From positions 530,001-594,000 of the forward strand of contig NZ_CP015848.1 in the NCBI RefSeq assembly GCF_002105535.1: a DNA stretch of 64,000 nucleotides, given 5' to 3'. How positions within the stretch are numbered: position 1 is the stretch's first letter; every line of letters begins with the position of its first letter. This document shows, one piece after another, positions 56,483-61,437 of the stretch. The position numbers and the translations under genes were made by a program. The notes under the pieces are model-generated. The model was not told the origin of the DNA. It worked only from the letters and a program-made list of their open reading frames with translations, and searched no databases. This stretch comes from Magnetospirillum sp. ME-1. Its GTDB lineage: Bacteria; Pseudomonadota; Alphaproteobacteria; Rhodospirillales; Magnetospirillaceae.

Positions 56483-59740
<3,258 letters not shown>

Positions 59741-59764
59741 CGTCTGGTTCCAGCGAATGAATTA

Positions 59765-59783
59765 ACCACGAAGGCACGAAGGC
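59765..59783 (+). repeat. Inverted repeat, left end of the cassette
   Basis: ACCACGAAGGCACGAAGGC; the CACGAAGG unit recurs at 59794-59801, so the left side has a third partial unit. Confidence 0.85.
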
Positions 59784-59802
59784 ATGAAGGAAGCACGAAG
59801 GT

Positions 59803-60231
59803 TCAAAGCACCACCCGTTTCATGCCATCTCGAAGCACCTCGCTGTTAAAGTTCAGCAAAAGACCGGCCCGGATGCCGGTGAGTTTCAGATAGGTCAACA
59901 ATTGAGCGCCGTGTACCGGCAGCAATTTCTCAACCGCCTTGATTTCCAGGACCAGCGCATCGGCAACGACGAGGTCGAGCCTATAGGCGCAGTCCAATTT
60001 CATTCCCTTGTAGACGACCGGAACAGGTACCTGTCGTTTGAAAGGGATCTCGTTCAACTCCAGTTCATGAGCCAGACACTGCTCATAGGCCGATTCGAGA
60101 AGTCCTGGGCCTAAAGCCCTGTGAACCTCGATCGCCAGCCCGATCACCCTTCGGCTTGCGGCGTCGAATTCCTTATCCCCTTCCAATTCCTTCGCGCCTT
60201 CGTGCCTTCGTGGTGAAATGAACGCGTCCAC
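59803..60231 (-). CDS. GxxExxY family protein (PD-(D/E)XK-like)
   Basis: 142 residues from a GTG directly after the carA stop. Motifs: GLAIEVHRALGPGLLESAYE (GxxExxY), QVPVPVVYKGMKLDCAYRLD and LVLEIKAVEKLLPVHGAQLL (ExK of a PD-(D/E)XK-type core), then LLNFN. The first 15 residues are translated repeat (SPRRHEGAK), so translation may begin at the TTG at 60186, with the repeat AAGG as ribosome binding site. Role unknown; nuclease activity is inferred from the fold. Same strand as carA and carB, so it is probably read as part of their transcript. Confidence 0.85.
   Translation of the reverse strand: MDAFISPRRHEGAKELEGDKEFDAASRRVIGLAIEVHRALGPGLLESAYEQCLAHELELNEIPFKRQVPVPVVYKGMKLDCAYRLDLVVADALVLEIKAVEKLLPVHGAQLLTYLKLTGIRAGLLLNFNSEVLRDGMKRVVL
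60196..60214 (-). repeat. Inverted repeat, right end of the cassette
   Basis: Exact reverse complement of the left end, followed inward by another CGAAGG unit. It overlaps the first codons of the longest version of the GxxExxY gene. Confidence 0.85.

Positions 60232-61437
<1,206 letters not shown>

Follow-up and report, generated by a model that had tools for sequence, protein, structure and literature searches.

The DNA analysed here, called the window, is a stretch of 64,000 nucleotides from Magnetospirillum sp. ME-1 (positions 530,001 to 594,000 of contig NZ_CP015848.1, assembly GCF_002105535.1); the genome it belongs to, G000 in our set, is complete and measures 4.55 Mb. Our subject is the spacer between carA and carB (59741-60231), which holds a single gene of the GxxExxY family and two inverted arms, the gene being co-oriented with both neighbours. 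We take carA and carB to encode the small and the large chain of carbamoyl-phosphate synthase, and both presumably serve pyrimidine synthesis. The gene lies exactly between the two (carA ends at 60232 and carB starts at 59740), and the locus reads as follows:

59803..60231, minus strand: GxxExxY / PDDEXK_3 gene, 142 codons counted from the GTG, assigned by profile matches
60187..60217, minus strand: 5' (gene-proximal) arm, tandem CACGAAGG-type units oriented along the coding strand
59762..59792, plus strand: 3' (gene-distal) arm, inverted copy of the 5' arm
59765..59783, plus strand: exact 19-mer ACCACGAAGGCACGAAGGC
60196..60214, minus strand: inverted copy of the exact 19-mer
56483..59740, minus strand: carB, downstream neighbour, from the translation of its open reading frame (ORF)
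60232..61437, minus strand: carA, upstream neighbour, from the translation of its ORF

The inverted ends of 19 bp described in an earlier note on this DNA are indeed exact at both sides (chance expectation 0.02 matches), and they belong to a longer inverted repeat of 31 nt (59762-59792 versus 60187-60217), 90% complementary and with its halves 394 nt apart. The gene matches TIGR04256 (GxxExxY) with an expectation value (E) of 3.3e-44 and 150 bits against a curated cut-off of 35, as well as PF13366 (PDDEXK_3; E 5e-43). A search of G000 for further copies gave a divided answer: no second GxxExxY gene exists there, and one more 19-mer, with 1 mismatch, lies at C1:242579 within a gene-less repeat cluster, between ORFs that presumably encode a DegP-like protease and a flagellar protein. 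The further claim that the gene starts within its own repeat may not hold: the GTG at 60231 comes before the arm, residues 1-20 of the structure model are of low confidence, and the true start is probably downstream of the arm. Among the 76 loci with an upstream 9-nt unit the start taken by script falls 0-4 nt after the last unit in 32, and the left arm may serve as a leader of the gene. The ORFs of the unit include no transposase, in agreement with the earlier note. An Rfam scan of 801 bases (E up to 1) and a search against PHROGs returned no match, and PADLOC matched 0 defence families, which gives no sign of anti-phage defence. An intervening sequence of 23S rRNA was rejected as well, the site lying between protein genes and the protein family differing from S23/four-helix.

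Matched arms and their dialects across the GxxExxY family

The arrangement was followed through 129 loci. To 80 of the 320 confirmed relatives, chosen as the best, 49 loci of the family genomes and the window were added, and one locus, L040, was taken away because the seed profile missed it. Nine of the 129 are repeat records (seven identical, two at 98-99%), which were kept in the counts of arms and of dialect agreement and dropped from the tree and from the neighbour and mismatch analyses. At 113 of the 129 loci the inverted arms exceed the 99th percentile of shuffles, so that the link between repeats and GxxExxY genes proposed for the window holds far beyond G000. The arms consist of tandem units of two kinds: units of 8/9 nt, in which CAC is followed by GAAG, AGAG, GGAG, CAAG, TAAG, AAAG or others (dialects such as CACGAAG, CACAGAG, CACCAAG and ACACGGATG), and units of 11 nt, in which ACAC is followed by GGATG, AGATG or GAATG. 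At least two units were counted in 202 of 258 arms versus 3 of 240 far controls. The dialect could be typed at both ends of 111 loci, at one end of 13 and at neither end of 5, and the two ends agree in 100 of the 111, with shuffled pairings agreeing in 30 on average and in 42 at most. Flanks paired across different loci pass the arm test in 31%, because dialects are shared between loci. Bracketing by inverted arms is real and general to GxxExxY loci, in several bacterial phyla. It also reaches some plasmid records, six of whose seven matching loci were read by eye: Bacteroides and Bernardetia have clear arms, arms of a CGCAGAG kind adjoin the Gemmatirosa gene, Treponema has short inverted ends, Sphingomonas a left arm only, and Prevotella a different repeat. 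At one locus common to L094, L096, L144 and L146, inside-out arrays lie upstream of the GxxExxY gene with no significant inverted pair across it; the gene downstream is presumably YchF-like.

The dialect of the arms follows the phylogeny of the protein. On a tree of 119 proteins and 122 columns, 15 rows of which have no or a conflicting dialect, dialect changes 20 times (n=104), as opposed to a mean of 55 and a minimum of 51 in 200 shuffles. The period of the unit, 9 or 11, changes 3 times (shuffled minimum 11), and dialect within period 9 changes 16 times (n=89; shuffled minimum 37). About eleven natural dialects, each with matching proteins, can be told apart. What has to be explained is that short non-coding arms are still recognisable, and still matched, across such distances. 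Among the cassettes at carA-carB, L027 and L036 have CACTGAG at both ends, CACAGAG being the dialect of most of the rest in this region of the tree, so that both ends differ together from those of L012, L023 and others. The carA-carB cassettes are split on the tree (6 changes), and a test of 41 chosen rows for their falling into one clade was borderline (p of the approximately unbiased test 0.0585, or 0.0655 without L064). A single origin was set aside on these grounds; several arrivals at carA-carB are suggested rather than proven.

Gene-less arrays and the inheritance of the gene-bearing unit

Pattern searches over 55 family genomes, 31 with and 24 without a GxxExxY gene, returned, per genome, 0-209 array matches for 9-nt units and 0-103 for 11-nt units, the reversed-pattern control giving 0-4. 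Array count and GxxExxY count go together (Spearman 0.77; median 26 in the genomes with the gene versus 0 in those without), and they still do when the arms of the genes themselves, taken as 4 matches per gene, are removed (Spearman 0.59; medians 18 versus 0); 23 of the 31 gene-bearing genomes exceed 4 matches per gene. The dialect of the arrays also matches that of the genes more often than chance would give. A tally made by eye, which took in 18 genomes with respect to the 9-nt type and 6 with respect to the 11-nt type, yields a pooled Fisher p of 0.0002 with own-arm matches removed; G011, G027, G028 and G029 were absent from the first tally, and adding G027 and G029 later brought p to 8e-5. 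The gene itself reaches up to 10 matches per genome, partial ones counted.

The gene-less units fetched take the form of inverted pairs, which measure 57-162 bp except for two nested units of about 220 bp. Five chosen elements, folded as DNA, all give near-perfect hairpins (z -10 to -14). Five G000 elements have interiors related neither to each other nor to the gene, and among the nine elements tested the interiors show no convincing similarity to gene-bearing units, for which reason an origin by deletion of the gene was discarded. Of 40 gene-less sites, 12 have an open frame that runs across the element; this was judged uninformative in DNA of high GC content. G048 (L164-L173, L183) has a family of gene-less CACCAAG/CACGAAG elements of about 150 bp with a common interior, some copies reversed and with sequence in common outside the arms too, and five elements of G025, 73 bp each, look alike by eye. 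Nesting was seen by eye in L251, L252 and L258, with a CACAGAG pair within a CACCAAG pair and another pair within a CACGGAG pair.

Two other sources of such arrays have to be weighed at this point. Replication template switching, or some other enzyme, might have spread and homogenised the arrays, GxxExxY being a passenger in the palindrome. The joint difference in dialect at both arms of the carA-carB unit is what template-switch correction would give, and the unrelated interiors of the G000 elements, together with the arrays found in 9 of the 24 genomes without the gene, would suit a passenger as well. The strong co-occurrence of arrays and gene and the congruence of dialect and protein speak against it, and so does the only other cargo searched for, the four-helix-bundle family TIGR02436, which is present in 1 of 55 genomes, has no arrays in the stretch fetched around it and was rejected as an alternative. 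We hold the passenger explanation to be unlikely. The second source, transposases of the Y1 (HUH) type, REP-associated or other, acting on the arrays in trans, is recommended by the REPIN-like shape of the gene-less palindromes and by a weak correlation of Y1 count with arrays (Spearman 0.32). Y1_Tnp was found in 20 of the 55 genomes only, is absent from 7 of the 15 that have at least 30 array matches, and gave no match in G000; an array lies within about 0.7 kb at 2 of 30 Y1 loci. In the 35 genomes devoid of Y1 the median array count is still 22 with GxxExxY versus 0 without (18 versus 0 after own-arm removal), which largely refutes this explanation and leaves it a very small chance.

The earlier note took carA and carB to be neighbours as a rule, and other lineages do lack the cassette between them. 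From the 51 genomes with a match 30 carA-carB loci were fetched and classified by eye: 5 hold a gene-bearing unit, 8 gene-less inverted elements and 15 neither, with 2 not determined. The 8 gene-less elements are of other dialects, the one in L140 being degenerate, and other junctions are likewise reoccupied by differing dialects. Over 104 typed loci the neighbours are oriented (+,+) in 68, (-,+) in 15, (+,-) in 13 and (-,-) in 8, gene-bearing units thus lying mostly between co-directional genes and in their direction. This bias (68 versus 8), together with the strong hairpins obtained on folding as DNA, could mean that the arms work as RNA and not as DNA sites, forming in the operon transcript a hairpin that resembles an intervening sequence or is processed by an RNase. 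Arm mismatches at 84 loci, however, are not biased towards the pairs that coding-strand RNA would tolerate (74 versus 76), and reliance on read-through transcription with an arm as leader would account for the co-direction as well; an RNA role of this kind seems to us improbable.

Whether the gene-bearing unit moves is a separate matter. The earlier note saw in it a possible minimal mobile unit, and in its strict form this means an autonomous transposon, with GxxExxY as the transposase and the arms as ordinary terminal inverted repeats moving with the gene. A single gene with inverted ends in several phyla, up to 10 gene matches per genome and junctions free of the unit in relatives are all in keeping with this. 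The comparison of junctions yielded neither a clean empty site nor a consistent target duplication: in relatives without the element the spacer differs and is usually shorter, and TTCATT flanks both sides in G000 and G046 and not in G037 (by eye). No copies of at least 90% protein identity sit at different sites, all 8 distinct pairs at this level (6 sites, repeat records excluded) having both flanks in common, although with one genome per species in the sample fresh jumps would escape detection; the closest pair without common flanks, L105/L161, is 89% identical. The window protein matches 7 of 72,556 plasmid records and 0 of 50,697 phage records, and among viral contigs 4 pattern matches gave 0 confirmed cases. 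A minimal transposon is accordingly quite unlikely. Because of this sharing of flanks, its rarity on plasmids and its absence from the phage records, the gene-bearing unit is seen to be chiefly inherited in place. The dispersed part is mainly the gene-less inverted pair, and this brings the system closer to REPIN-RAYT than to an insertion sequence of one gene.

The enzyme and comparable systems

The earlier assignment to a PD-(D/E)XK-like nuclease is upheld by the PF13366 match and by the catalytic residues. E46, D86, E96, K98, Q110 and Y114 are invariant in 41 GxxExxY proteins, the first four forming the E...D...ExK pattern of the superfamily, with weak fold scores. The structure model has a predicted local distance difference test (pLDDT) score of 85.6. 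Its best Foldseek matches in the PDB are LHK-Exo, Cas4 SSO0001 and lambda exonuclease, with template modelling (TM) scores of about 0.4; none reaches E 1e-3, and a sequence-profile search of the PDB returned no match. Because of these weak E and TM values, the predicted likeness to Cas4 and lambda exonuclease is a statement at fold level only. The predicted fold and the QxxxY motif, whose meaning we presume to be that in Cas4, lambda exonuclease and RecB-type enzymes, are shared with that group, from which GxxExxY differs in having no PDB sequence match and a TM-score of about 0.4.

The nearest parallel is offered by REPINs, which excerpts of two papers (PMC3116915, PMC8049555) describe as scattered pairs in which a short repeat faces its inverted copy across a variable spacer, and by their REP-associated tyrosine transposases (RAYTs), described there as few-copy, vertically inherited genes flanked by the same repeats and not seen on plasmids. 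The GxxExxY system likewise has dispersed inverted repeat doublets and a partner gene that is flanked by repeats and inherited vertically, albeit with 13 of the 14 arrays of G000 in other dialects. The partner is a PD-(D/E)XK nuclease (PF13366) and not an HUH/Y1 tyrosine transposase, and the repeats are tandem CAC-type units, those of REPIN-RAYT being GTAG palindromes. By our analysis the GxxExxY system works like REPIN-RAYT and is not a member of it, since it lacks the defining enzyme. With miniature inverted-repeat transposable elements (MITEs) and insertion sequences it shares short gene-less units with inverted ends and a gene-bearing unit with inverted ends; it differs in having no transposase and no consistent target duplication, and in that none of the nine gene-less elements tested has its interior in common with gene-bearing units. 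The CGTC REPs, said in an excerpt of PMC3733652 to lack a dedicated transposase, are dispersed palindromes like the GxxExxY arrays, with a different sequence.

DUF559 nucleases (PF04480), present in 28 of the 55 family genomes, show an arrangement parallel to that of GxxExxY. The loci concerned are L311-L331, L339 and L340 in the family genomes, besides L270, L281 and L197. Of 23 loci viewed 19 were testable, and at 14 of these matching inverted arms exceed the shuffles, the arms being of the CCCTCTCCC/CCCTCGCCC/CCCTCCCC palindrome type (by eye) at 13. DUF559 genes occupy some of the junctions also used by CAC-type arrays, and the DUF559 gene of G000 (C1:877083-877400, L326) lies about 2 kb from a gene-less CACCAAG element at C1:879493.

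The GxxExxY family is widespread, and we found no role for it in print. The papers listed for GxxExxY or for PF13366/PDDEXK_3 hold, as far as could be seen, nothing on flanking or dispersed repeats; the one passage of PMC8934634 that names GxxExxY is unrelated to repeats. A literature search on six repeat words found nothing, and the matches listed for the 9-letter repeat words and TIGR04256 look unrelated. PMC12306157 mentions neither a nuclease nor RAYT. The matches listed for DUF559 with palindromes, CGTC REPs, or MITEs with PDDEXK contain no such link.

A proposed repeat system with its own nuclease: evidence and meaning

We consider it somewhat better than an even bet that GxxExxY genes and dispersed inverted arrays make up one linked, chromosomal and slowly evolving repeat system that works like REPIN-RAYT. 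In its favour stand the bracketing by arms, the matching of the two ends, the joint descent of dialect and protein, the occurrence of arrays together with the gene, the unbroken set of catalytic residues, the hairpins, the flanks common to close copies and the preference for co-directional neighbours. A few-copy and mostly vertically inherited nuclease gene would sit between two inverted arrays; the nuclease would recognise arrays written in its dialect, possibly in hairpin or cruciform form; and cutting at them would promote the copying, movement or homogenisation of gene-less pairs into intergenic junctions. The nuclease most likely acts on its cognate arrays; we infer that it binds and cuts DNA and that it slowly spreads or maintains the arrays.

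Several observations weigh against such a linked system. Significant arms are missing at 16 of the 129 loci, 18 lack a typed dialect at one or both ends, and 98 of 258 arms have one or more wrong-way units close to the gene. The tree, built from few columns, has 61 of its 116 inner branches poorly supported, and since the arms flank the gene, their being inherited together need not mean recognition. Of the gene-bearing genomes 8 of 31 have no more than 4 array matches per gene, and the 9 gene-less genomes with arrays are led by G022 (22) and G028 (11). The arrays of G000 are 10 of CACCAAG and 3 of CACAGAG type, with no gene so typed and its own dialect in 1 of 14; G008 has about 55 CACGGAG matches and yet both its genes are of the CACCAAG type; G027 has many ACACGGATG matches and no gene so typed, not all its gene matches having been typed. 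The p-values, coming from related genomes, overstate independence. Array counts also correlate weakly with those of other genes, namely DUF559 (Spearman 0.32; 0.22 after own-arm removal) and Y1 (0.32; 0.18), and the junctions compared offer neither a clean empty site nor a consistent target duplication.

Slightly short of an even chance, in our estimate, is the broader proposal of a new class of repeat systems, in which GxxExxY nucleases, and in parallel those of DUF559, would each own short palindromic arrays matched to them in dialect, recognise these in trans and spread them between genes without a transposase. If GxxExxY proteins do act on arrays of their own, the family gains a function, a type of intergenic repeat known from several phyla is explained, and a REPIN-like lifestyle would have evolved with an unrelated enzyme. 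With about eleven dialects and their matching proteins at hand in nature, the code of recognition would be directly testable by swapping the partners.
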